A DNA stretch of 64,000 bases from Siphonodentalium dalli (taxonomy: Eukaryota; Mollusca; Scaphopoda; Gadilida; Siphonodentaliidae), in contig CP136063.1 of the NCBI GenBank assembly GCA_032622095.1, positions 68,859,980-68,923,979 on the forward strand, read 5' to 3'. Of the stretch, positions 17,201 through 62,133 are shown piece after piece. How positions within the stretch are numbered: position 1 is the stretch's first letter; each line of letters begins with the position of its first letter. A program made the translations under genes and the position numbers. The notes beneath the pieces are model-generated. The model saw only the letters and a program-made list of their open reading frames with translations, was not told where the DNA came from and ran no database searches.

Positions 17201-20200
17201 AAAAATGTTAACGGACGGACGGACAGCTAGATAGACGGCTAGACAGACGGACGGACAGACTGATTACATAATAGGACATTTTTTTTCAAAAGGTTGTACA
17301 AAAGGGCCATAAATAAGAGGAAAAAAATCATCGGACTGGAACCATAATTGAAATTGATCTCAATAATGTAATTTTGATTCCTCTACGGAGGGTCGTTTCG
17401 ATCGAATAAGTTGAACTGACGTTAACAGCCTGACAAGGAATTGGACGGACACACGAACGGACGCGCAAACGAACTGACGCCGCTGAATATATTAGTTCTC
17501 CGAAATTATTAGGGGGGGGCAAAAATAAACTTGAAAGCGAGGTTTTATCACAAATAAATATGTTTAGCATTTTCACTTTTTCTCCCTATGCAGGCAATTT
17601 ATAATTTTAAAATGAACATCGACTTGCTCCTTTATCGCGCTACATGTATAATGCAAATGTTACAATGATGGCATTTATAATGACACCAAGACATATTTCA
17701 CTGTTCCCAGCACATTTTATTTTATATCTATTAAACCACTGTTGGCGTGCAGTTACTAACCAGTGTTGGTGTGTGAAGTCATACTTGGTGTAAACTAAAA
17801 TTGACTACAATCATTTATGCTCATTTCAATGTTTGGCGTTTCGGGGAAATATGTATCATAACCATCGCAAACTATGATAGTTTGTGTTAAATTTCAAAGA
17901 GGACCTTCAAATTTATCATACCAACTAGAATTATATTAGATAGTCCCTCTGATGTGATTTTAAAGCTAAAAAATAAGTCACCATTGAATTGGCATACACG
18001 TGATGTTCCAATGAGCAGGAAAGCAACAAAATGACACAATCGTCACCATAATGTATAATGATATGACTCCCATATTGACCCAATTATTTGCCTACAATTG
18101 GCAGATATTGTTTGGGGCTTGCAATATGCCGTACAGTAACAAAACATGCGAATTGCAATTTGCACGACAGTGCTCCTGCAATTCGCCGTACACCAAATAA
18201 TTATGTATTTCGTCAATAAGTTTTATTAAACAGCCGAAAAACTAATGTTTGGTGCTATGTAAGTCATTGTGGACCTTTCTACGCCATGAACATAGCAAAA
18301 TGTAAACGTACAGGCGTTTTAGATACAAGAAAATCGGTGTTTATCAGACCAAGTTACAGACGATCCGTAGAATTTCACCTAATAATCGTGATTTCTGAGG
18401 ACGTACTTTATATCCAGAATTTATAGATACTGTATTTGAGAAGTATAGTATAATATAATATTATTCAGAGGGATTTATACTTCCTGATGTGTCATGGTTT
18501 TTAACAATCACGAATATTCGGTAAAAATATTCGGCATATTGTGTACAAAAAATGAAATTTTCCTGCATAATATCCGTTGTCGGATATGCACAGTGATGAT
18601 GTAAAGCTTATTTCCGAGCTACAATGTATTACACAAAATTGGTCATGTGTGTAGATTAATCACGTTAAAGTCTGTGTTGTATACGATATGTTAACAGCTT
18701 GACTAAGCAATAGTTTAGAAGGCGTGTATATAATCACGTTTGGTTTTTTAAATTTATTCTTTATGCGTGCGCACATAAACTAATGTTTTGTATATAGCAT
18801 GTTTAAACTATCATGTAGAGAGTAATCAATTGATTTCGATGATTACTTGAAACAGTTCACGAGGGGAGCCCAGGCTGGTTAACCCTTTACCCAACAGAAC
18901 GGTCCTGTGCCAATGCATTCTCTTATATATGCGAGTCGACCATAGGTCGCCTCGCATATATAAGAGAATGCATTGGCTTAACACATATTAAAGAAAAAAT
19001 GGTAAAAAGTGTTAAAAAAAAGTTTTTTTTAGGCCAATGCATTCTCTTATATATGCGAGGCGACCTATGGTCGACTCGCATATATAAGAGAATGCATTGG
19101 CACAGGGTATAACTGTAACTATCACAATGTGGTCAAGGAGCCGGTTCCAATGATATCCATATTTGTATGGTTCTATTGAGACAGTTCGAAGATATTTTAG
19201 GCTGTTGAAGCTTTATTTGGCCGGTTTTGGCCGGTTTGTTGGGTAAAGGGTTATACCCAGTGAGCACAGCGAACGAGGGTTTTACCAATAGATCAGGCTT
19301 ATCGTGTGAATTGTCATCAAACCAATTGATTATTCTTGTTATTACACACTTTCCATCATTAAAAGGCGCTAATTCTAAAGTTAATATGTGACAAAATAGT
19401 CCCGAGCAGCTTATCGCGACATCTTAATCAACAACTTTGCACGACTTATCGACAACAAATGCAAATATGACCATATAACCCAGACGTTGATCAGTGAGCA
19501 TATAATGACTTTTCAGTTTAGAATGGAATACAAATGTGCGGTCACAGTATTCAAATCGAAATCATACGGCTCCTGTGTACATCTCTGACATGTTTGTTAT
19601 GAAAATCGGGGGTGTGACACGATCATGTACCAGTGGGAAAGATATCCGCAGAACGAACAGGAAGCCTAACATCAACTACGGAATTAGGTGCTTCCAAGAG
19701 ACTGCCATTAACAACTGGAATAAACTACCAATGGACATCCGGAAATGTGCTACTCTCACCAACTTCAAGTCAAAACTTAAAACTCACCTGTTCGAGATAT
19801 GTTTCAGTCTGCCAAAAAAGGGTGTTTGCCAACAGGTTAGCGAGTAGCCGTGGTCAGCTAGGGTGTTCCAGGCTATACCAGGTGAAAGCTAACGCCGTGC
19901 GCATTCTTATTCCAATAAGTATTCAATGACCTGTAATTTATCTACTGGAATTACAACCAAAGAAGAAGTCACACAAGCACGTTAGCGAGTAGCCTTGGTC
20001 AGCTAGGGTGTTCCAGGCTATACCAGGTGAAAGCTAACGTCACGCGCATCAACCAAGTAAAACACCAGCTGAACTTGACTCGTGTATATATGTGTCTGAT
20101 AACTGTTATTATTTTTTTATCTTAAAATACCAACAAAAAAAAACAAAAAATAACTAATGCAAATACTCTTTGTTGATATTATTCTATCTTGTATACTGTT

Positions 20201-23200
20201 TGGATCACTAATAAGCAACTTAGTCTCATCAATATTTTTCGTTTCGATTTTACTCGTTCCCGATCTTTCCCATTTTACCCCCTTTTCGTGGTATTTTTAG
20301 CTTGTTACCCGTTCGCCATTTTTCACCCTTTTTTCGCTGTTAGCATTTGTTAGCATGTTACCACCCCCAATTTACCAGTAACTTTTGTTAATTTATTTTC
20401 GATTTGTAATATTATGCGCTTTTATATTTCTTAGTAACGTCTCACTTATAGTTTTACTTTTTTAGTTGAACAATTGTTGTTTACATAACAAAGGTTATAA
20501 CATGCGAAATGTAATCATTGGAGAACTATGAATATAAGAACACAATACAAATATTATCCAATTTCATCTTAAAGATACGGGCGGCGTTGGCGGTGGATAT
20601 GCTGTTAAAATATTCACCTCCGTCAAAAACCGCCAATTAGAAAGAATAGTAAAATATAGACATACCTTGTTCTTATACCAATCAGAAATATGGCATAAAC
20701 AGTATGTTATTATCAATTTTGTTTGCTTTGTTATGTAAACAGAAGCAAAAAACGTTACATTACCTGGCTTTTGTTTAGATCCGGATATGGTAAACATAAA
20801 GAGCGTATTTTGTTACTGTTTTCCTGATATGGAATTAATAAAGAGCGTTTATATAATTTTTGTGTGATTAACAAATGGAATTGCGCTGTGTTATGTAAAC
20901 AGAAACACAACTTCTGTAACACGAGGAGGCTCTTGTTTACGTACACCATCGTACGTCTTGACGCAATATACTATATACGCGCTGATTATGTTTGCCATAT
21001 GAACACAACTATATATATTTTAATATTCCTTCTGTTGGTGGCGATTTGAACAAATAGGAATATTTCTGCAACGAACGCCGTCCGTGCCTTTAATGGTGAT
21101 ATATTTATAGAAGATTTATGTTTTGGCTTACGGGACTTGAAGATCCTCTCTTTGAGTGTTTCTTGAGTAAGCCATACAGGAAACCTCTTTTGCTAATCTG
21201 CAAATGCAAATACCAGGTGTAGCTATTAGAAGAAGAATAGCCGTCTCGTTACTCTCACATCTAAAAATAGAATCTTTGGGTCTAAAATTGGTTGTACTAA
21301 AATATTCCCAAAACTTCCAAAATATCAAAACCCAAAAAAAATTTCAAAACTTCAAAAATTTATTTTTTCCAAAAAATTTCAAAATCCCAAAACTTCAAAA
21401 ATTATCAAAACCCCAAAATTTCCAAACTTCCAAATTATCAAAACCCTCAAAATTATTTCTCCAAAAAAAGTTTAAATAAAAAATTTATAACGAGTTTTCG
21501 GTTTCTGATAATCTCGATATTAAAATGTCGAATGTTAAATTATTTGCGTGTAATATCTTTCGTTATTTTTTTTTTGTTCAAATATTTTTCATGAAATTAT
21601 TAATCGATGTTTAGAAAATAGCTTTATTGGACATTGTGACCATCGATATGAATGCATACATTCCAGTGTTTTATCGGACGCAGTTCATATAATTGTCATA
21701 CCTGAAAATACACACTATTACTTTTACATAAATAATAAAGAGCGTTTATTCTTTACTTCTCTCTATATGAAGTTATTGAGTATATGACAGGCGTGTATTA
21801 TCGTGAATTATTGGAAGTATTGAGACTAACGGTCGAAAATTGTAATGTGAAATTAGAACCCTCCAGAATGAATTGTTCGCTGTACACGCAATCACACGCG
21901 ACATTGGTCGTGTGTCACACCTTTGCTTTACCAAATGAATTATATTATTTCCTCGGTCACAGCTATATGGTATTCAGAAAACATATCGATTTAATGTCTG
22001 AACAAAACGGGGTTAGTATCAATTAAGGTTCATAAACTGTGTCATTCACACGATAATTAGTTAGCCAAAAACATGCATACATATTAAGTCAGGTCGTGAG
22101 ACACTCAATTATAGAAATTGCTTTGATGACATTGTTATAATAACATTACGTAATAACCCCTTATCACTCCAGTCACACTTACGATCATTTTGTATGCCGA
22201 AAACTCCAGGTAGCACCGATGATGTAACATTATATCACTGCTATTGTACCAATGATAGGTTCAGACATGTTCCATGTTTAGAAAAGAAAAGTTACCTATA
22301 ATTCTGCTGTGGTTAAGCAGTCCATTATTTAGGGCATACCTGTATGTAGGCCTACCAGTGGATGAATAGTCTGCCGGAGAAGTACTGTGTAGACAGGTCT
22401 TGTCGGTAAGAGAGTCAGACGAGTAGTGAAGGCTCGGCTATTAAAACATAGTAATGCGATAGCGAACATCAAACGAGTCTGCGCACGCATATCTGTCAAA
22501 GGATACAAGGGCAGTCATTGGTCAATTTATCCCCGGTGTCAGCTCAGTACCCAATCGGGACGAAGCCGAAGGTCAACTCATTTTTTTGTGCTCATTATAG
22601 TACGTCACTTGGACATTTTATCAGTTTATCACGTCATCACTAAATGTGGCAATCGGGTATCCACCGATGCCTGCAATTTATTATTTATAATAATTGGACT
22701 CATTGATCTCACGTAAATAATACTCTTAGTTGTTCCAATAAAATAGTTATCAAATTCGATCACCAATAGATTTGACTGTGGAATATAATGACCTTTAACT
22801 TATTTATCGATCTATGTTAGAACATGGTCTTAACAAAAAACTTGACCATAACAAAAATTACCTTACATTTATGCATGAATCTAATTAGACCATGCGTAAA
22901 TATTGTCAGCTTATCGTCTGATGAGCAAATCCGATGTTTATCAAAAATAGTACAACTTCCAGTTGGTAATTACTCTTACGAATGAAGAGCGTTGAACATA
23001 TACGAAATTACTACACGAATGAACTGAAATTTATATTTCACATCTTACCAACAACAGATACAGACATAGTCATAGTGTTATACTATCTTACATGTACACA
23101 CGCTATGACATCATTCGAAGGGGCAATACACTCAAGGAGTTAAAGTGACACGAAACAAGGGACGTGATGCAATATTGGTGTTTGAATATTAAAAGGAACA

Positions 23201-25776
23201 CAAGACACTCTAAAGGGACACTCATTATGAATGAATGTTAACAATACAAGCGCAGTGGTTGAAAGTTAAAATGACAGATCAATATTTAAGGGTCAAATTT
23301 TCGGGGCACTTAATGCACCTTTTATCATTACGTATCGTTTCTCACTCTACAATTCCCAATAATCCACACACTCTCTCCCTCCCCCAGCTTATAGATATAT
23401 AACGAAAACGAGAATATCATGTTGATGAAGTTTATTGAAATTTAATCGTCCGAATTGTCATCACTTTCGCCAGAAGTGTCATATGTTACGTCCATGAATT
23501 TTTCTAGCATCGGTTTGTACTTTAATATTGACATTTTCACTGCATCATATTCTCCATAACCATTATTCAAATATTTGTCGACTTTATCCATGACTCTGTT
23601 GTGCAGAGTCCCATTGCGCAGCTGCAGATACGATACTATTGTCCAAGCATAATCAGTCATAAAGTGTATCATATCTTTACTTTTAAGGTCCTTGTCAGCT
23701 TGTTCTTTTGCTTCTGCGTCTTTCGAGCCATTTTCCTTATACGTGTCCACTTTATCACTCCATTCCTCACGTGTTTTATCTCTACTTTCATCACGCAAAC
23801 TTTTGAAGTATTCATCTTCATTCAATTTAATTTCCTTATTCTGACTATCATCCGGGTCCTCAGTTAATTTTCGTTTTAACTTATTTTCTTGACACCAGTT
23901 TTTTACGTGTCTCTGAACATCATAATGATCTGCGAACAAAAGCCCGCATTCATTACAAGGGTACGACATGTCTTCTTGAATGTCTCTGTTTTGATGGTTC
24001 TTCTTATTAATTTCATCGAGCTCACCAGGTGGCCGTATGTCGTTAGTATAGTCATTATGTTGACCCTGGGGCACAATATAATTATATGTTATGCCCTTCT
24101 GTTGACCGGGGAGTTCTCTGTCATCGTATTTCATCGCATTCTGTTGACCCTGGGTCTCAGTGTCTTTTGTATGTTTTATCATCCCATTCTGTTCATCTGG
24201 GTGTTCTCTGTCTTTTTGGAGATTATATTTCATGCCATTCCATTCACCCCTATGTTGGTTCGTGTCCTCTTTTAGTACATTCTGTCGCAGACGTAATGTG
24301 TCCGGTGTTGCGGCTTTTAAATCCACCAGTAGGTAACCGTACGGTTCACTCGTCGCTTCCGAAAACTCTCGAACCATACGCTGAGGACATTCAGGATACA
24401 TCTGTCTTGATAATGTTGAAATTAATCCCTTGTCGATTGGGTTATTGAACAATACCAAATATTGACAATTTCGTCGTTGCGTTGGATCTTTGTTGTAGTA
24501 GAAATTCTGGTTCAAACTTATCAAAGATAAGTTCAAATGGTGACTTCCTTCGGAATGCAAATCATTAACTCTCTGGTCTTTTGATGAAGTTTGCATCAAG
24601 TCATCGAGTATAACTAGATTTTTATACCGGGGGTTGATAAGCGAATCCAAGTTTGCTGGTATTCCTCGTATAAAGTTGACCTGAGGGGTGACGGTATACT
24701 TTAATTCGTCATATAGGGGCTGCCAATATTTATAAAACCATATTATTCTGTCAGGTGCGGGTGATATTTTTGAGGCAGACTTTTGTAGTAAGGTTTTCAC
24801 GAAGTATGTCTTACCACAAGATGTCGGTCCACTTACACATGCCGTGAATGGATGCTTGAAAATAAAATCTTCATGGACATTGGCCATTGGATCATCAAAG
24901 CAGGATGTTATGTCGCTTTGTTGCTGTGTCCCCTGCTGGTGTTGTAGTATCTGGTGTGGCTGTAATGGCTGTTGTTGTGGCTGATGATACTGCTGCCTGT
25001 TGCTGCTACGGTCTGTTGCTGTTGCTTGGTGCTGCTGCTGTGGGTGTCGGTTAACAAACTCAGTGTGCTTAGATTGTACATGTCTTATCAAATCATGGTT
25101 CCGCACATACCCCCTAGAGCAAATTGAACACTGGTGCTTCATTTATACTTGACTAAAATGTCTCGGTATATGGATTTCCTTTATACAAATGTTCCTTATA
25201 ACCTAAAAATATGTCATGTCCGTATGTTTGATAACTTTATGTAGATGAAATAGTCTGCCGGAGAAGCACTGTGTATACGGGGAATCAACAGGTCTTGTCG
25301 GTAAGAGAGTCAGACGAGAAGTGAAGTATCGACTATTAAAACATAGTAATGCGATAGCGAACATCAAACGAGTCTGGACACGCATATCTGTCAAAAGATA
25401 CAAATAGCCGTCATTGGTCAATCTATCCTCGGTATCACTTTTCGTTTTACAAAATCAATTTCACCGAGAGGTTCCCTCGTCATTTGTAGTGACGTAATTG
25501 TGGCACCGCCGCCGGCGGCGGCGGCGGCATTGCGGTATTTGCCGGCGGCGGCGGCGGCGGCGGCATTGCGGTATTTGCCGCCGGCGGCGGCGGCGGCGGC
25601 ATTGCGGTATTTGCCGCCGGCGGCGGCGGCATTGCAGTATTTTACTGCGGGGTCCGCCGGCGGCGGACCCCGGCGGCGGTGGCTGCACCGCCGCCGCAGT
25701 AAAATACCGCAATGCCGCCGCCGCCGGCGGCAAATACCGCAATGCCGCCGCCGCCGCCGCCGGCAAATACCGCAAT

Positions 25777-25807
<31 letters not shown>

Positions 25808-28800
25808 GCGGTGCCACAATTACGTCACTACAAATGACGAGGGAACCTCTCGGTGAAATTGATTTTGTAAAACGAAAAGTGATACCGAGGATAGATTGAC
25901 CAATGACGGCTATTTGTATCTTTTGACAGATATGCGTGTCCAGACTCGTTTGATGTTCGCTATCGCATTACTATGTTTTAATAGTCGATACTTCACTTCT
26001 CGTCTGACTCTCTTACCGACAAGACCTGTTGATTCCCCGTATACACAGTGCTTCTCCGGCAGACTATTTCATCTACATAAAGTTATCAAACATACGGACA
26101 TGACATATTTTTAGGTTATAAGGAACATTTGTATAAAGGAAATCCATATACCGAGACATTTTAGTCAAGTATAAATGAAGCACCAGTGTTCAATTTGCTC
26201 TAGGGGGTATGTGCGGAACCATGATTTGATAAGACATGTACAATCTAAGCACACTGAGTTTGTTAACCGACACCCACAGCAGCAGCACCAAGCAACAGCA
26301 ACAGACCGTAGCAGCAACAGGCAGCAGTATCATCAGCCACAACAACAGCCATTACAGCCACACCAGATACTACAACACCAGCAGGGGACACAGCAACAAA
26401 GCGACATAACATCCTGCTTTGATGATCCAATGGCCAATGTCCATGAAGATTTTATTTTCAAGCATCCATTCACGGCATGTGTAAGTGGACCGACATCTTG
26501 TGGTAAGACATACTTCGTGAAAACCTTACTACAAAAGTCTGCCTCAAAAATATCACCCGCACCTGACAGAATAATATGGTTTAATAAATATTGGCAGCCC
26601 CTATATGACGAATTAAAGTATACCGTCACCCCTCAGGTCAACTTTATACGAGGAATACCAGCAAACTTGGATTCGCTTATCAACCCCCGGTATAAAAATC
26701 TAGTTATACTCGATGACTTGATGCAAACTTCATCAAAAGACCAGAGAGTTAATGATTTGCATTCCGAAGGAAGTCACCATTTGAACTTATCTTTGATAAG
26801 TTTGAACCAGAATTTCTACTACAACAAAGATCCAACGCAACGACGAAATTGTCAATATTTGGTATTGTTCAATAACCCAATCGACAAGGGATTAATTTCA
26901 ACATTATCAAGACAGATGTATCCTGAATGTCCTCAGCGTATGGTTCGAGAGTTTTCGGAAGCGACGAGTGAACCGTACGGTTACCTACTGGTGGATTTAA
27001 AAGCCGCAACACCGGACACATTACGTCTGCGACAGAATGTACTAAAAGAGGACACGAACCAACATAGGGGTGAATGGAATGGCATGAAATATAATCTCCA
27101 AAAAGACAGAGAACACCCACATGAACAGAATGGGATGATAAAACATACAAAAGACACTGAGACCCAGGGTCAACAGAATGCGATGAAATACGATGACAGA
27201 GAACTCCCCGGTCAACAGAAGGGCATAACATATAATTATATTGTGCCCCAGGGTCAACATAATGACTATACTAACGACATACGGCCACCTGGTGAGCTCG
27301 ATGAAATTAATAAGAAGAACCATCAAAACAGAGACATTCAAGAAGACATGTCGTACCCTTGTAATGAATGCGGGCTTTTGTTCGCAGATCATTATGATGT
27401 TCAGAGACACGTAAAAAACTGGTGTCAAGAAAATAAGTTAAAACGAAAATTAACTGAGGACCCGGATGATAGTCAGAATAAGGAAATTAAATTGAATGAA
27501 GATGAATACTTCAAAAGTTTGCGTGATGAAAGTAGAGATAAAACACGTGAGGAATGGAGTGATAAAGTGGACACGTATAAGGAAAATGGCTCGAAAGACG
27601 CAGAAGCAAAAGAACAAGCTGACAAGGACCTTAAAAGTAAAGATATGATACACTTTATGACTGATTATGCTTGGACAATAGTATCGTATCTGCAGCTGCG
27701 CAATGGGACTCTGCACAACAGAGTCATGGATAAAGTCGACAAATATTTGAATAATGGTTATGGAGAATATGATGCAGTGAAAATGTCAATATTAAAGTAC
27801 AAACCGATGCTAGAAAAATTCATGGACGTAACATATGACACTTCTGGCGAAAGTGATGACAATTCGGACGATTAAATTTCAATAAACTTCATCAACATGA
27901 TATTCTCGTTTTCGTTATATATCTATAAGCTGGGGGAGGGAGAGAGTGTGTGGATTATTGGGAATTGTAGAGTGAGAAACGATACGTAATGATAAAAGGT
28001 GCATTAAGTGCCCCGAAAATTTGACCCTTAAATATTGATCTGTCATTTTAACTTTCAACCACTGCGCTTGTATTGTTAACATTCATTCATAATGAGTGTC
28101 CCTTTAGAGTGTCTTGTGTTCCTTTTAATATTCAAACACCAATATTGCATCACGTCCCTTGTTTCGTGTCACTTTAACTCCTTGAGTGTATTGCCCCTTC
28201 GAATGATGTCATAGCGTGTGTACATGTAAGATAGTATAACACTATGACTATGTCTGTATCTGTTGTTGGTAAGATGTGAAATATAAATTTCAGTTCATTC
28301 GTGTAGTAATTTCGTATATGTTCAACGCTCTTCATTCGTAAGAGTAATTACCAACTGGAAGTTGTACTATTTTTGATAAACATCGGATTTGCTCATCAGA
28401 CGATAAGCTGACAATATTTACGCATGGTCTAATTAGATTCATGCATAAATGTAAGGTAATTTTTGTTATGGTCAAGTTTTTTGTTAAGACCATGTTCTAA
28501 CATAGATCGATAAATAAGTTAAAGGTCATTATATTCCACAGTCAAATCTATTGGTGATCGAATTTGATAACTATTTTATTGGAACAACTAAGAGTATTAT
28601 TTACGTGAGATCAATGAGTCCAATTATTATAAATAATAAATTGCAGGCATCGGTGGATACCCGATTGCCACATTTAGTGATGACGTGATAAACTGATAAA
28701 ATGTCCAAGTGACGTACTATAATGAGCAAAAAAAAATGAGTTGACCTTCGGCTTCGTCCCGATTGGGTACTGAGCTGACACCGGGGATAAATTGACCAAT

Positions 28801-31800
28801 GACTGCCCTTGTATCCTTTGACAGATATGCATGCGCAGACTCGTTTGATGTTCGCTATCGCATTACTATGTTTTAATAGCCGAGCCTTCACTACTCGTCT
28901 GACTCTCTTACCGACAAGACCTGTCTACACAGTACTTCTCCGGCAGACTATTCATCCACTGGTAGGCCTACATACAGGTATGCCCTAAATAATGGACTGC
29001 TTAACCACAGCAGAATTATAGGTAACTTTTCTTTTCTAAACATGGAACATGTCTGAACCTATCATTGGTACAATAGCAGTGATATAATGTTACATCATCG
29101 GTGCTACCTGGAGTTTTCGGCATACAAAATGATCGTAAGTGTGACTGGAGTGATAAGGGGTTATTACGTAATGTTATTATAACAATGTCATCAAAGCAAT
29201 TTCTATAATTGAGTGTCTCACGACCTGACTTAATATGTATGCATGTTTTTGGCTAACTAATTATCGTGTGAATGACACAGTTTATGAACCTTAATTGATA
29301 CTAACCCCGTTTTGTTCAGACATTAAATCGATATGTTTTCTGAATACCATATAGCTGTGACCGAGGAAATAATATAATTCATTTGGTAAAGCAAAGGTGT
29401 GACACACGACCAATGTCGCGTGTGATTGCGTGTACAGCGAACAATTCATTCTGGAGGGTTCTAATTTCACATTACAATTTTCGACCGTTAGTCTCAATAC
29501 TTCCAATAATTCACGATAATACACGCCTGTCATATACTCAATAACTTCATATAGAGAGAAGTAAAGAATAAACGCTCTTTATTATTTATGTAAAAGTAAT
29601 AGTGTGTATTTTCAGGTATGACAATTATATGAACTGCGTCCGATAAAACACTGGAATGTATGCATTCATATCGATGGTCACAATGTCCAATAAAGCTATT
29701 TTCTAAACATCGATTAATAATTTCATGAAAAATATTTGAACAAAAAAAAAATAACGAAAGATATTACACGCAAATAATTTAACATTCGACATTTTAATAT
29801 CGAGATTATCAGAAACCGAAAACTCGTTATAAATTTTTTGTTTAAACTTTTTTTGGAGAAATAATTTTGAGGGTTTTGATAATTTGGAAGTTTGGAAATT
29901 TTGGGGTTTTGATAATTTTTGAAGTTTTGGGATTTTGAAATTTTTTGGAAAAAATAAATTTTTGAAGTTTTGAAATTTTTTTTGGGTTTTGATATTTTGG
30001 AAGTTTTGGGAATATTTTAGTACAACCAATTTTAGACCCAAATATTCTATTTTTAGATGTGAGAGTAACGAGACGGCTATTCTTCTATTAGAAACACGAC
30101 GCAAAAAAAACGAAATTACTTAAAGATGCTCTGTCAGATTTGACAATATATTTGACAAAATTTACTAAGCCAGTGTTCAACATATACCACACACGAAACG
30201 TACCTGGTATACACACAATACTATAATATGAACTTGTCATTAAATGTGAAAAAAATTAAAAGTGTCAAACAACACGAAATACATTGGTATAGTGATGAAC
30301 ACAGTTCCAACATCATTGTACATATAACAGGTTCCGTCAATTATAGTTTGACAGCAAACAGATTGTTTAAAAATAGCCGATTTAACATGGAATGTATGCA
30401 CGGATATCACAATTAGAGTTAAAAAGAGGGCATCAGTACTTTTTTTGTGCAACAAACGATCGGCTCAGTCGCTGTTTGGTAGAACATAAATATATCAATG
30501 AGGACAAATCAATTCATGGATTGTTTTAAGTTCGCATATTGGCTTTCAACTGGTAACAGTTGCCCGTTGTTTAACTTGCGCGTTAGTGCAACAGAACGAT
30601 GTTGGCATACTCCATGTCACATACGTGACACAGTTTTGCATTATATTTGAATCAACAATGCACTACCTTATATGAATTACACTTGAGTAGGCTCTCAGGG
30701 CTGTGTGAATGGATGCGATGTTTCAATAAACATTCAAATAATAATGCTATGCAAGTCCATTTTCATCTTTCCCTTGATATTGAGTTCGCCGTCTGGTACC
30801 CACAATCTCTTCAAATTTCAAACAAAGAACCCACATACAAGAAAGCATCAATTTTTTTTATTGTCAACCATTTCTCGCATGTGAGAAAACATTCAACCCT
30901 TGATTTACACAAACCGTAGGTTTGAACATCAATATATAATCATGGTGATGAATCACGTGGTTTCCATGTGATGAGTACCAGGCATTCAAAATGGTCGAAG
31001 CATTGGCAAACTCGACCAGAAACGAGGAAAAAAAGTAATAAACTAAGATAGTGATATATTGCATATTATTTTGGCAGCTGTGAGCATAATTATGCTATAC
31101 GATATTTCAACAAGCTCATTTGTGTCCAAACTCACAGTTGATTGCTTTAACATTCTGACCAAACTTGTCAGTCGAAGGATTCTTCTTGATGTATGGACTG
31201 GTGTATTTCACGAGCCGCCGACTGACAACTTTGGTCAGAATGTTATAGAAAACTACTGAGTATTTCTGAACAAATAAGGATTCTACTTATTTTACAAATA
31301 AACTAGCATATGCTCGTTACACCAGTCGACATGCTTTGTTTTGTGTCAGTTCCTCATATATTTTGTTTTTGTGCGTCTATACATTTTGAATACGTGGTAC
31401 TCACCAATCTCGAAACCACGTGATTCCCACCGTGATAAGGAACAATAAGGCATCATGTAACATTTGTATATTGTTATGGTGAAATAGTTAAATTCTACCG
31501 TGATAATAGTGCTGATAATGAGGGTGATATCGCGTGTACACTACATCTATTTGGGAACTACTATGGATAACATGGATATTGGTCAATATCAAGAAAATAA
31601 ATTCACAAACAAAGTCTCCTTTTACAAATTAGTATTGAATTCGCCAATGAATTTGAGTTACTTCTGTACAGAATATCCACGAATCAGACGCCATTGGTAA
31701 ATCACCTCCCGTGGTGGCTGATGCATACATATTATGTAATATTATATCTCACGTGACTTTCTCGCATTCTGATTGGTTGCAAACTGCTATACTATTTTAC

Positions 31801-43800: not shown

Positions 43801-46800
43801 TGAATATGGCAGAACTAAATTGAAAGTTAATTGGATATTGGCGATTAAATAAAATAATATTTAGCAATTGTGGTAAATACAATACAATACCATTGCAATA
43901 TGTTATAAGCTGTTATCCTGCAATGTCAACGTTATAAGGATTGTCCGTGACATTCCGGACTCGGATAAAACTAAATGTCTCTAGTTCAATAAAGTGCCAT
44001 ATACGCACTAACAAGTCATTTACCGTACGAAAACATGAACATTTTATTTCAACTTGGAAGTCATTTCGAACTAGAACAACATTGTATTGAGACACAAAAC
44101 AGTTCCACCGGATTTGTTTTTCATTTTGGTCGCCATGTTAGTATCAATCATCGCTTTCACTTAATCGGCTGGCTGATACATATAAATAAACTATATTCAA
44201 CATAACACCATAACTCATAAAGCGCATACATCATTCTGGTCCGGGTTACACACGTCATGTGTACAGAGCGTCAACATCAAATTTGATAGCCATTTTGCAC
44301 GGCTTGTGTTGAATTACTTTCCCTAATCTATAATTTGAACGAAGGAACAGTTGTTTTGTTCGATCGTTAGGTAAAAACTCAAGACATTGTCATCTTCTCT
44401 CTGGAAATGTTTTATGAACAATCTTGCACAAATCCAGAACAACATCATGTCAAAAATTGTATGGGTGGTTTCAGGATGATAAATATATACATGCTTTTAT
44501 AGCACATGAACGAACATCCAATTTAACAACCCGTAGTCTCCTGTATATTCTTGTAGTTTCCCTTACGAAATCTCGATTTCACTGCTTTCAATTTCCTCGA
44601 ATGACATGTTAAATGGAAGGGAATATCGTTGTCAAATTGGATTATTTCGTTAGAACTTACCGAGTTATACAGTGCCTTCATTCTGTCCACCGTCACGAAC
44701 TTCTTTAAACTAGCACCGTGATCAAGAAGAAGGTCAACGAAGTGCGGTTGGTTGGAGTTTAGCGCCGACGCCAACGCATCGTGCAACTCCACAATCTGAG
44801 AAATAGATGAACTAGTGTCAGGGCAATGTCAAGGCGATGTGTTGGTTCTGTCCAACTTAGACTTTCGTTGTAGAAAAGTAGAACATCGAACGTCCAAGCA
44901 CGCACCCTCTTACGGTTGAATATTTCCAACTTATATAGTCGTATTATTTTTTTGTTTTAAAATGACGGATTGAAGGGAAATATTCGACTTTTTGTCTGAA
45001 ACAAATGTCACACCATCGAATGGTGGTAACACCAAACTATCACCACTGTGAGATATGGGATCCATGCACCGAGCCAATTTGTTTACATGTGTCTTTTTGT
45101 GTAAGATAGAGCAACCATATTGTCAATTTATCATATATATTAGAATCGTAACCCGCAAACATATGGGTATCGGGGGTCTATTCGTTTAAAGTGCAAAGCA
45201 CATTAGGCCGACATTTATTCATCCTAAGCGAAGTTGGTTCGATCCCTGATATTCGTGGTCTTTTGACTTACACGTACACACGTGTGTCTGTGTAAGTTTG
45301 TCGATTGATACTCGTTGACTGTGGTTTCTTCGTGCAGTGGAGGGAATGTTTTCTTGCTGAAATTAACTCACAGAACGTTGTTTTCCCCACTGGTGAAACT
45401 GACATTATTATGATAACGGCATAGGGGTGACACGACGATAAACTGCAGTAAACAAAACCAACGCTGTCTAAATTGGCAGGAAACGTCAGTTTATACTAAA
45501 TACCTACTGCCGAGTAGTCTCCTTTAGGAAATGTGTAGATAATAAGTTGTACATATAGTTTGAATTTATAATCAGAACATTTCCCACATTTCTTTAACAA
45601 TTTTATAATTTTTAATATGTTAAGCCAATGCATTCTCTTATATATGCGAGGCGACCTATGGTCGACTCGCATATATAAGAGAATGCATTGGCACAGGGCC
45701 CTTCTGTTGGATAAAGGGTTAATATATGTTCCTTAATCATTAATACTGTATTTCACATTAGGTGATTGTCCCAGCTCGAGATTCTCAAGGAGTTGAAGTA
45801 CCCATTGCACGTTATAATGTTAATATACAGTCAATTTTCACCACGAACCATTTGAAATCTCCAAATATATAGAGTGTATACGCACCATTGGCTGCCCAGT
45901 GGGCTTGACGCTAAGACTTATCATGTCAGGTGTATGGGTTATGTAGCGGGATATTCCCAAATGGTCCGTGGGGTAATAAGGTATACACACCGTTAGTGGT
46001 TTCTCGGCGTCTGCGAACACGTATTCTCGTGTGATATCGATCCTGTTCATGGCCATCGTTAATACTAGTCTGTCACTTGCTCTTTTCGTTGCTGTGGAGG
46101 AAAGAAACGGCTGGATATTTTCTTTTTATATTCGTGTATACGCCTGTTGTTATTATAAGCGTAAAGTGTGAACAGGGGATTTTCTAAAAAAAAGAAAGAA
46201 GATAATAGTTAGGGAGCCCGCATATGTTCTATTTACACTTTTGCGTACAAAAGGTTTGACCCCCTAAAGTTGGTACCAATAATGGAACATTCTGAAAAAC
46301 CGATTTCTTAAGTTGCGCATTCCTGGGGTTTAGGGCCCGCCGAACCCCAAAAAGTGCCAAAAATCACTTCTATTTACACTTCTGCGTACATCGATGAATT
46401 TTGGTTTGATGATACTCCTAAGTGTACTGATTAAGAAAACACAACTTAAGAAAGGGTTTTTCCTGGGGTTTTCAGATAAGAAAGGGGGTCCCATGCTGAA
46501 CCCCAAAACGTGATTTTTCACTTTTTTTTACACTTTCGCGTACAACCCATAATTTTTGGTCTCAAAGTATTTTGATATATACTAATCATAAAAACACAAC
46601 TTAAGAAGCAACTTTTCCTGGGGTTTTAAGATAAGAAGGGGGTCATCGGGTCACCCCTCAAAACGTAAAAAATCACTTTTATTTACATGATTGCATTCGT
46701 CCAACGTGTGTGTATGTGCGCATACCCCTGGAACGTTGCACTATTACAACCAATACATCCCTAAATCGATACGATCAACTTACGAAATATATATTCATGT

Positions 46801-58435: not shown

Positions 58436-58973
58436 TTTCCGAAATTACAAAACACCACACAGTTATCCACATTCTAATTCTCTTCTAACTTAAAACGTTA
58501 TTTCGACACACACAAGCCTTGTAAATATCGATGAAATGTGCAGAAATAGAAAACACTCTACGCGACTTTTTGTTTTTAATTTAATGCGCTGGATAAAATA
58601 TAGTCCCACAATTAGCATTGCTCTTATCGTTAAAAATGCTGATAAAGATAAAATTGCCACCTCGAATAGAAATAAATATGCACACCAATTAGTTTCTACA
58701 TGTACCTGATGTCTTTTTCAGATGTTTACCACTTACGAATTGCGGTTTTTATTTTACCGCGAACTTGAAGTTGAATTGAAACATTGGGAAATTGTTACTC
58801 ATTGAGATCTGTTTCATGCCGTATCTGTCACAGTTTCATGTCAAGAAATTTGGTCAAATTATATCGAGACAATGATACTGATGGGATATAACCGTGGGGT
58901 GATTTGTGATTTCTAAAAGTACATGTATACAAGGCGAATGTACTGACTGTCAAATTTCGACAAAAGCGACGAT

Positions 58974-60473
58974 GTGGACCGGGCGCCAACTCTATGCATT
59001 TACTATGTAACGTCGTCGACATGTAACCAATTTGAATATCTGGTAGAGGAGGTTGAAACATTTTACAAATTGGGCCACCTTATGTTGTGTGGTGATGTTA
59101 ATGCTCGGTGTGCCAACCGCCCAGACTACACATCAGAAATATCAAATTTGGATTACCTTCCTGATTTCCCAGATAATGATAGAAACACTTATTCCTCGAC
59201 TCCCCGAGTCTCACAAGATAATTCAGTGTGTGCTAGGGGATCTCAACTACTTGAACTCTGTGTAAGTGCCAAACTTCGTATTCTAAATGGAAGACTGTTT
59301 GTGGACATGTTAGGTAAACTCACTTCACACTGTTCATTAGGCAGTAGTGTTATTGATTATTTCATTGTTAGTGAAGATATTTACAACAAATTTCTGTATA
59401 TGAAAGTTCACACATTTAAACGCTCTTTATCAAACCACTGTCAAATTTCAACAGCCATTGCAACTATACCCAATACCACTAATAACTTATGTAGCAAAAG
59501 ACAGCTGGTAAGTAATTCAGAGTCTTTATGTTTGAGACCTAAATTCTTATGGAAAGAAAACTCAATTCAAGATTTTCAGAAAGCTTTGCAATCCCAATCT
59601 ATTTGTCAATCAATAACTGAATTTCTTAGTAATCCATATGAGGCTAACCATACAAACTGTATAGTGAATGAGTTTACCTCGACCATCACCCAAGCAGCAG
59701 AGTTGTCTCTACCTAATAGAGTACATAGACCCAATGATAATAATGAGCTGATTTCAAAACCTAAACACAAAAAGTGGTTTGACACTTCATTGAGAGAACT
59801 ACGTAGAAGTCTTGATCATTGTAGTAAACAACTTGGTTTACACCCTTTCGATAGACAGTTGCGTAATAAATGTTTTCAAATGAGTAAACTATATAATAAG
59901 TCTCGGAAACAAAAGCGGCGTAAATATTATTGCGGTGTATATGACGAGTTGGACGCTATCCCCCATGGACATCAAAAAGACTTCTGGTCAGCCATTAACA
60001 AAATAAAGAAGGTTGAGCATGGCAGCGTCACATCTCCTATTGAAGCAGATAATTGGCTTAACTACTTCAAAACTCTTAATACTGTATCCCCGGAAAAAGA
60101 GGAAATAGCACAGGGCTTAGATGTAAAGTTTTCCAATTTAGCCAAACCAGATTCTGATTCCATTCTTGATCAAACTATATCATGCAAAGAAATATCGCAG
60201 GCATGTCTGAAACTAAAAAATAACAAGAGTAGTGGCAAGGATCGAATTATCAATGAAATGCGCAAATACGGTCAATTTGCGCTTCTGTCGTGTCTTGAGA
60301 AACTTTTTAACACAATTTTAAATACAGGTCATTATCCAAAATGCTGGGCAGAGGGACTAATCACACCTATCTTCAAAACTGGTAATCCTTTAGAGCCCAC
60401 TAATTATCGTGGCATAGCAATAACAAGTTGTCTATCAAAGCTATTTAACCATATACTGAATAAACGTTTGTAA
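58974..60473 (+). pseudogene. LINE ORF2 part 1: endonuclease C-terminal half and RT start
   Basis: The open stretch of 499 codons is not a complete protein. It includes the endonuclease motifs LCGDVNARC, SSVIDYFIVSED and SLSNHCQI, then the start of the reverse transcriptase (SSGKDRIINEMRKYG, CWAEGLITPIFKTG, NYRGIAITSCLSKLFN). The catalytic block normally reads S-D-H; Asn replaces Asp here. The frame ends at a TAA at 60471 caused by a single-base loss; the continuation is in another frame. The first Met shown is not a genuine start. Confidence 0.85.
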
Positions 60474-62133
60474 ACTACCTAGAGAATAAAAACATCATGC
60501 ATTGGTTTCAATTGGTTTCAAAGCAGGATGTCGCACATCTGACCACATATTTAAATTGAAGACAATTATTGACAAATACCTTAATAAGTCACAATATGTA
60601 TATTCTTGTTTTATTGATCTGCGTAAAGCATTTGATTCTATACTTCATCCTGGTTTATTTCTAAAGCTTAGAACGGCTGGTATTGGTGGTAAGTTCAGCC
60701 ATATCATTGAGTCAATGTACTCTAAGATAAATCTTAATGTCCTTTTAACAGGGAATGCCATTACGGAAAGTTTCCCATCCAGCGTTGGTGTATTCCAGGG
60801 CGATTGTTTGAGTCCTAGTTTATTTTCACTCTATATGAATGATATTGTTGACTGTTTTGATTATTCTTGCAGCCCAGTTTCATTGGGCGGGAAATATATC
60901 AACTGTTTATTATATGCAGATGACCTTATTCTGTTGTCAGAAACTTCAAGTGGACTGCAAAATTGCTTAGATAAATGTTGCTCATACTTTCAGGAATGGG
61001 GTCTAGATATTAATTATTCTAAATCAAAAACAATGATTTTTAATAAGGCAAGCTGTTTAATTAAAAGCCAGTTCACTATGAATACCCAAATTATTGAATC
61101 TGTTAGAAATTATCGATATCTTGGAATATTATTGTGCCTGAATGGCAATTGCAACCAAGCTCTCAATGATCTTTATCAAAGAGCATCTAAAGCCTTTTTC
61201 AAAATTAAAAGTACCTTCAATGACATGTCGTTCAATCCGAGAAAATTTATGCATGTATTCGATCAAACAGTGAAACCGATTCTATTGTACTCATCTGAGA
61301 TTACTGGAATGCTTTCAATTAAGAGCCTTAAAAAGGACTTGAGTATAATGTTTGAAAACAACCCCATTGAGAAATTAAATAGAAGCATGTGTAGATATCT
61401 ATTGGGGGTTCACAAAAACTCAACACTACTTGCAATTTATGGTGATCTCGGCAGATATCCACTTTACACAGATATAATATTGAATATGGTCAAATATTGG
61501 AAAAGACTGCATGATGGTTCCCTTAAAGGCCATCTGCTGAGAGAAGCCCTCACTGATAATGTTAACATGGTAGGTTGTAACCAACAATGTTGGCTCCAGT
61601 CTATCTATAATTTCCTTAAGAAGTTGGGATTTGAACACCTTATCCAGAAACCTGATTATATTACCCCGAAAGTCATACGCTCTATTCAGATCACTCTGAA
61701 AAAAAAGTTCAATTATAAATGGAAACTGGATTTGGAGAAAAGTTCAAAATTAAGAACATATAGACTATTCAAAAATGATTTCAAATATGAAGAGTACCTT
61801 GATCAAATAAAGGACATTAATGACAGAAAATGTTTGTCTAGATTTCGTATCAGTGCGCATAGATTACAAATAGAAATAGGCAGATACTCATCGAAAGAGA
61901 ATGATGTCAAGGACCGAGTTTGTACAAAGTGCAATCTTGGAGTAACTGAGGATGAGGCCCACTTCCTATTACAATGTCCCAAACATGATATGGTACGTAA
62001 TAATTTAATTGTCCCACTTCTTTCACAAAGTATCCAAACTGAAGCTTACTACACACAACTCATTTGGTTAATGAACAAAACAGAGCCCAAATATATAAAA
62101 CAGATAGCCAGGTTTTGTTCTCTTTGCTTTTAG
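60474..62133 (+). pseudogene. LINE ORF2 part 2: reverse transcriptase and C-terminus
   Basis: About 35 bp after the first break a second single-base loss (60500-60512, in a TTGGTTTCAATTGGTTTCAA repeat) restores a long frame of over 540 codons. It carries RT motif A (FIDLRKAFDS), motif B (GVFQGDCLSPSLFSLY), the catalytic YADD (138-141 counted from 60502), motif D (WGLDINYSKSKTMIF) and the terminal CTKCNLGVTEDEAHFLL with a C-x2-C...H...C arrangement. All catalytic Asp residues are kept. Only two shifts and no other stops point to a fairly recent insertion. Confidence 0.88.

Follow-up and report, generated by a model that had tools for sequence, protein, structure and literature searches.

An 8856-bp palindrome in the genome of the scaphopod Siphonodentalium dalli probably belongs to a family of self-complementary and non-autonomous elements of the Polinton/Maverick type that has been active recently and is multiplied by snap-back replication with a resident Polinton as helper. 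The palindrome lies in a stretch of 64,000 nucleotides of contig CP136063.1 (assembly GCA_032622095.1, positions 68,859,980 to 68,923,979; hereafter the window), and had been noticed earlier from the letters of the window by a model (hereafter the original prediction).

The palindrome, its insertion site and its family

Self-comparison of the window placed the palindrome at 21231-30086, with its mirror axis at x + y = 51317. The arms, of 4298 bp each, differed by six substitutions (21274, 21477, 22486, 22588, 24197 and 24734) and by no insertions or deletions (indels). Between them lay an axis rich in GGC, about 260 bp long, the two sides of which were made unequal by indels, the left side having one extra unit of about 36 bp. 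Limits of the palindrome were abrupt: the longest inverted match of the adjoining 1-kb flanks was 12 bp, and the exact 6-bp duplication ATTAGA abutted both ends (abutting 6-mers were shared at 8856-bp spacing at 15 of 54,944 window positions). Because ATTAGA is duplicated outside both ends, the element starts with AGAAGA and finishes with TCTTCT. The window locus alone also allowed an 8-bp duplication (TATTAGAA) with the boundary one base inward, which was rejected because it fitted 5 of 29 loci, the window locus included, versus 29 of 29 for 6 bp.

The genome (2.23 Gb, nine contigs) was searched with the 566-amino acid protein encoded in each arm, and scores were obtained for the best 77 of 5348 candidates, which makes the resulting locus count a lower bound from a selected sample. 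All 77 scored matches were stop-free, with 98-100% identity, and grouping by position gave at least 46 loci across all nine contigs (31 divergent pairs and 15 unpaired matches). The 31 pairs were examined at their genes, ends (29 pairs) and centres; two (C1:113160554 and C4:15971755) had an end outside the retrieved pieces and were left out of the duplication count, which covers paired loci only. An exact 6-bp duplication abutted AGAAGA..TCTTCT in 29/29 resolved pairs, and element length was 8201-9127 bp. Duplication sequences were distinct in 28 of 29 cases, with a pyrimidine-purine (YR) central step in 21 (p = 2.6e-7), a symmetric preference that fits, we infer, an integrase cutting 6 bp apart. 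Among the unpaired loci, 12 of 15 had a gene-bearing second arm (69 bp were deleted in one case, and another was slightly shortened), the second terminus being visible from the first base onwards in 10 of those 12; in two the second arm kept its terminus but had lost all or most of the gene; and the last (C7:79401336, L106) showed only 56 bp of second-arm sequence in the 5.2 kb retrieved and was read as a truncated copy. The distinct flanks, the duplication outside the ends and the dozens of palindromic copies on nine contigs together show that what moves is the palindrome as such. A single relic was rejected given the 46 loci; this rejection does not extend to a single origin of the family.

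Near-perfect palindromes are a known shape of assembly or sequencing fold-back artefacts, which the original prediction had raised as a concern. That explanation is barely credible here, since the flanks are unrelated and the 6-bp duplication stands outside the palindrome, the arms differ at six positions, and the same architecture recurs at dozens of places with duplications at every resolved pair. The mirror axis and the few substitutions between indel-free arms, as originally predicted, were recovered; the predicted arm length of 4,428 bp was too great, as it took in the GGC-rich centre with its indels, although the mirror arms are real. TRPM2-like domain matches on both sides (2597-2851 and 44523-44828, both on the minus strand) are consistent with the palindrome lying inside a TRPM intron, as had been proposed; the further view of a one-off left there did not hold, the element having dozens of copies on nine contigs. 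The ATTAGA duplication, the central T-shaped double hairpin and the genome-wide family had been missed. Features of the window copy are as follows (unstranded where no strand is given).

21225-21230: target-site duplication ATTAGA, left copy, outside the left end
21231-21236, plus strand: left end motif (AGA)2, putative protein-priming and jumping-back terminus, same in 29/29 resolved loci
21231-25528: left arm, from mirror comparison
21309-21456: A+T-rich short repeats near the terminus (mirror about 29861-30008)
22358-22541: outer copy of an imperfect direct repeat (mirror about 28776-28959)
23431-23436, minus strand: AATAAA poly(A)-type hexamer, 5 nt past the stop codon (mirror copy 27881-27886, plus strand)
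23442-25142, minus strand: left copy of the open reading frame (ORF) for the 566-amino acid protein, with C2H2, A32-like packaging ATPase, C2H2 and helical C-terminal parts
25241-25437: inner direct-repeat copy, lying 5' of the ATPase start (mirror about 25880-26076)
25502-25648, plus strand: left side of the central GGC-rich stem, in units of about 36 bp, from repeat and fold analysis
25649-25671, plus strand: tip hairpin B, 10-bp stem and 3-nt loop, from folding
25672-25695, plus strand: tip hairpin C, 10-bp stem and 4-nt loop, forming the T-shape with B, from folding
25696-25815, plus strand: right side of the central stem, one unit fewer, from repeat and fold analysis
25789-30086: right arm, from mirror comparison
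26175-27875, plus strand: right copy of the ORF for the 566-amino acid protein (two residues unlike), used in domain and structure analyses
30081-30086, minus strand: right end motif, reading (TCT)2 in plus orientation, mirror of the left end
30087-30092: target-site duplication ATTAGA, right copy, outside the right end

No Rfam match was obtained within 20500-31000. A direct repeat of about 184 bp flanked the gene in each arm (93-94% identity over an ungapped core of 116 bp), and its inner copy, just upstream of the ATPase start, may act as a promoter region. The outer 1.1 kb was about 79-98% identical to the window copy, versus mostly 94-100% for the mid, gene and inner parts (L094-L108); the divergence step, at 22357/22358, coincided in full-length forms with the start of the outer direct-repeat copy and suggests exchange between end and core modules. 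In one palindrome subfamily (L095, L096, L100, L102, L103 and L105) about 276 bp were duplicated internally, and the outer direct-repeat copy was lacking. Elsewhere in the window, non-long terminal repeat retrotransposon-like ORFs were found at 58947-62133 (reverse transcriptase above the cut-off, endonuclease sub-threshold), and a short hairpin repeat at 18904-19101 (arms 19033-19065 and 19069-19101), with inverted matches near 45668 and 54129, is perhaps a dispersed repeat like a miniature inverted-repeat transposable element (MITE).

Packaging ATPase, absent genes and candidate helpers

Each arm held a single long ORF, the intact, outward-reading 566-codon gene already recognised in the original prediction. 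Domain analysis and structure comparison, run on the right-arm copy and for structure on the ATPase part of the protein, identified a packaging ATPase of the A32/FtsK-HerA class, which is a Polinton/Maverick hallmark. In some relatives of this ATPase the gene model was a fusion, with rve or chromo domains or with a protease resembling adenain. The nearest named relatives pointed to a bivalve or another mollusc as host. In a sequence search of PDB the top matches were zinc fingers, and no packaging ATPase was among the best 60; PHROGs gave a single weak match (E 0.096) and NCBIfam a single weak match far under the cut-off. Relatives were confirmed in neither viral_contigs nor genome_contigs, and two DNA patterns searched in viral_contigs had no match. 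One ATPase relative (P0017), filed under a Sedimenticola metagenome-assembled genome, is probably host contamination of a bacterial bin.

No polymerase was matched by Pfam among 16 further stop-to-stop ORFs of at least 80 codons in the element. Retroviral-type integrase was likewise without a Pfam match, and tblastn with the non-ATPase parts of five fused relatives was insignificant (best E 0.55); nothing significant indicated protease remnants in the arms (tblastn with fused relatives, Pfam on the further ORFs). For a jelly-roll capsid there was neither a second long ORF nor a Pfam match, although very divergent short remnants could escape detection. Rep/NS1 initiators had no Pfam match in the ATPase ORF or in the 16 further ORFs. 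A weak match to MgtE_N (E 0.042), in a frame rich in GGC, was taken as chance. With no recognisable polymerase or integrase, the element is therefore non-autonomous. The original prediction had reported the same absences, of the replication initiator included, and had left the choice between a non-autonomous element and a new mechanism; the former stands, and the recognisable relatives are of a known kind, the Polintons.

In the same genome, matches to PF03175 (DNA_pol_B_2), which we take to be the protein-primed type of family-B polymerase found in Polintons, were scored at 69 loci (the best of 1596 candidates). The best match was without a stop in 68 of the 69, open frames were mostly about 950 or 1310-1330 amino acids, and the closest scored locus was 318 kb from any of the 46 palindromes. 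These loci are apparently a large, recent Polinton-type population of the host.

The T-shaped axis and the equality of the arms

Folded as a single strand, the axis formed a long stem topped by a pair of neighbouring hairpins with 10-bp stems, one with a loop of 3 nt and the other of 4 nt, giving a T-shape. Paired tip hairpins were obtained from shuffled sequences in 0/20,000 cases for the tip, and in 1/2,000 and 0/2,000 for the core. Across the family, the tip was parsed in 31/46 loci and both hairpins were intact in 19/46; the other 15 centres were unparsed between conserved stem ends. Shortened axes of 110-226 nt, in which the T-tip was gone or reduced, were seen at C4:15971755, C2:145875541 and C8:47183905, and loss of the palindrome centre following insertion is plausible.

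The T fold, which resembles that of adeno-associated virus (AAV), also favours a rolling-hairpin replicon, in which a 4.4-kb linear genome would have one parvovirus-like T hairpin telomere and one Polinton-like open end, the palindrome being an unresolved dimer whose tip is normally resolved by a nicking enzyme supplied in trans. In the available text of PMC8195378, self-annealing double hairpins of AAV prime replication, and alternating concatemers are expected without nicking of the tip. This explanation is nevertheless unlikely, because the Pfam search of the element's ORFs found no replication-initiator domain, none of the 46 loci held an intended single-arm insertion, and AGAAGA ends were used in all 29 resolved insertions, with none ending at the tip. 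Of the head-to-head dimer of a hairpin-ended element that had been predicted, a palindrome joined at a hairpin-forming centre is supported, whereas dimerisation of a separate hairpin-ended monomer is just one of the ways in which its replication can be read; of the single-arm copies to be sought in the assembly, none of intended form was seen among the 46 loci.

Arms were compared over terminal pieces of 59-380 bp in 29 copies, 3 of the 58 pieces beginning 3 bases early where AGA precedes the element end. The two arms of one copy differed on average at 1.3 positions, and left arms of separate copies at a median of 21 (minimum 0); for 48 of the 58 arms the own partner was strictly nearest. The first 20 nt occurred in 10 versions and were identical between arms within every one of the 29 copies, the main variable site among copies being bases 11-14 from the end (AGAAGAATAG-NNNN-CTCGTT; 21241-21244 and mirror; termini L031-L093). 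In the gene, compared in 12 pairs of best-scoring loci, arms differed at a mean of 2.7 of 1698 positions versus 5.9 between copies. Such likeness within a copy means that arms were alike at insertion or were equalised afterwards; equality already at insertion, via a folded intermediate, is favoured.

The arms and tip bear also on a second explanation, likewise judged improbable, in which one accidental palindrome of the defective-genome type arose from a larger Polinton and was then copied as an ordinary non-autonomous element with long terminal inverted repeats, the tip being a functionless relic and the arms being kept equal by gene conversion. The architecture shared across loci fits such a single origin, many inserted copies have lost the tip or carry an altered one, and incomplete adenovirus particles are described as enriched in left-end DNA in the available parts of PMC5033970 and PMC12090768. 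Against it, the 47-nt B+C tip, or its reverse complement, was identical in 18 of 46 loci versus the median of 21 differences in the terminal pieces, and the first 20 nt, equal between arms despite their 10 versions, would need conversion up to the very end.

Proposed replication cycle and related systems

In the preferred reading, of a snap-back satellite with a resident Polinton as helper, the Polinton would supply integrase, terminal-protein polymerase and capsid. Protein priming at one AGAAGA end would displace one strand, which would snap back at the T-tip, with no partner needed, to a hairpin duplex of 4.4 kb. The sole open end of this hairpin would again be the AGAAGA origin, and copying around the T-tip would restore the 8.8-kb palindrome, mismatch repair or re-templating at the hairpin stage equalising the arms. 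With the ATPase that it encodes, the satellite would be more readily packaged or spread, and the integrase would insert it by its two AGAAGA ends at targets whose central step is preferably YR. A displaced strand of the adenovirus type normally has to form a panhandle; a self-complementary one could refold immediately along its full length, which would be its advantage.

Several results weigh against this reading. The intactness of the 77 copies comes from the best-scored candidates, a selected sample, and the fusion relatives scanned were picked largely because listed domains or names hinted at fusions. Single-base codon differences among 12 copies were nonsynonymous in 198 cases versus 98 synonymous, so that they give no evidence of recent strong purifying selection on the ATPase. 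Fold energies of the whole axis, although very low (z -24.4 and -10.8), largely restate palindromy, from which whole-axis stability follows, and the shuffle test for paired tips is therefore the only specific one. The T-tip was missing, shortened, altered or unparsed in 27/46 loci, so that inserted copies persist without it. Its two orientations are indistinguishable from insertion in either direction, and hence give no proof of flip-flop. The own partner was not strictly nearest for 10 of the 58 arms, and gene conversion after insertion could be the keeper of arm identity. Resident Polintons are candidate helpers, the PF03175 loci being known from polymerase matches.

Polintons/Mavericks of animals (adintovirus-like) share with the palindromes 6-bp duplications, a short repeated end motif starting with AG and the A32/FtsK-HerA ATPase. 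A 6-bp target-site duplication is given for them in the available text of PMC10045372, PMC12220804 and PMC8097293; the last, as far as available, also gives a mean length of about 17 kb for vertebrate Mavericks and the end motifs (AGT)2//(ACT)2 and (AG)3//(CT)3, thought to permit jumping back in protein-primed replication. The AGA triplet of the palindromes is not among the motifs listed in that part of PMC8097293. Unlike Polintons, the palindromes are 8.2-9.1 kb long, wholly self-mirrored, with a T-hairpin axis and with C2H2 fingers flanking the ATPase, and are without a recognisable polymerase, integrase, protease or capsid gene. No report of a palindromic Polinton was found in a limited literature search of partly available sources.

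The stem with two small tip hairpins at the axis is like the terminal repeats of AAV and parvoviruses. Unlike in those viruses, the tip stands mid-element instead of at the integrated ends, no Rep/NS1 was found and integration gives 6-bp duplications. Self-complementary AAV has a palindromic genome that folds back to a half-length duplex, as the palindromes would be able to do. Defective adenovirus genomes, from a protein-primed linear parent, include palindromic left-end duplications and are similarly shortened derivatives made of one end and the packaging region; to our knowledge they are not known as an integrated, multiplying family, and we know of no T-hairpin axis in them. Foldback and other long-inverted-repeat non-autonomous transposons have large inverted repeats, target duplications and mobilisation in trans. 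Unlike Foldback and MITE-like non-coding transposons, the palindromes have Polinton-like ends and, in either arm, an intact packaging gene of viral type. A shortened derivative of a fungal mitochondrial plasmid reportedly occurs as a hairpin and as a duplex, and, judged by the title of that study, is the closest precedent found for the inferred cycle; unlike the palindromes, no chromosomal family with target duplications is named in that title. The parent plasmid is treated as having a terminal protein in the available part of PMC11071308.

More tentatively than family membership, the palindromes may represent a new class of mobile DNA, namely Polinton-parasitic satellites with an extrachromosomal 4.4-kb hairpin (one AAV-like closed T end and one protein-primed open end), packaged with the aid of their own ATPase and reinserted as the 8.8-kb palindrome. 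If true, protein priming and a hairpin turnaround would be combined in one replicon, which would connect adenovirus-like protein-primed with parvovirus-like hairpin-primed replication. A satellite keeping only ends, hairpin and packaging ATPase suggests a minimal set of cis sequences, and its replication cycle would have left marks in the equal arms of each copy, the repeated end motif and the T-shaped axis. Half-length hairpin DNA would be a simple physical test of the cycle. These satellites would bear on the question of true viral replication and DNA packaging by Polintons in animals.

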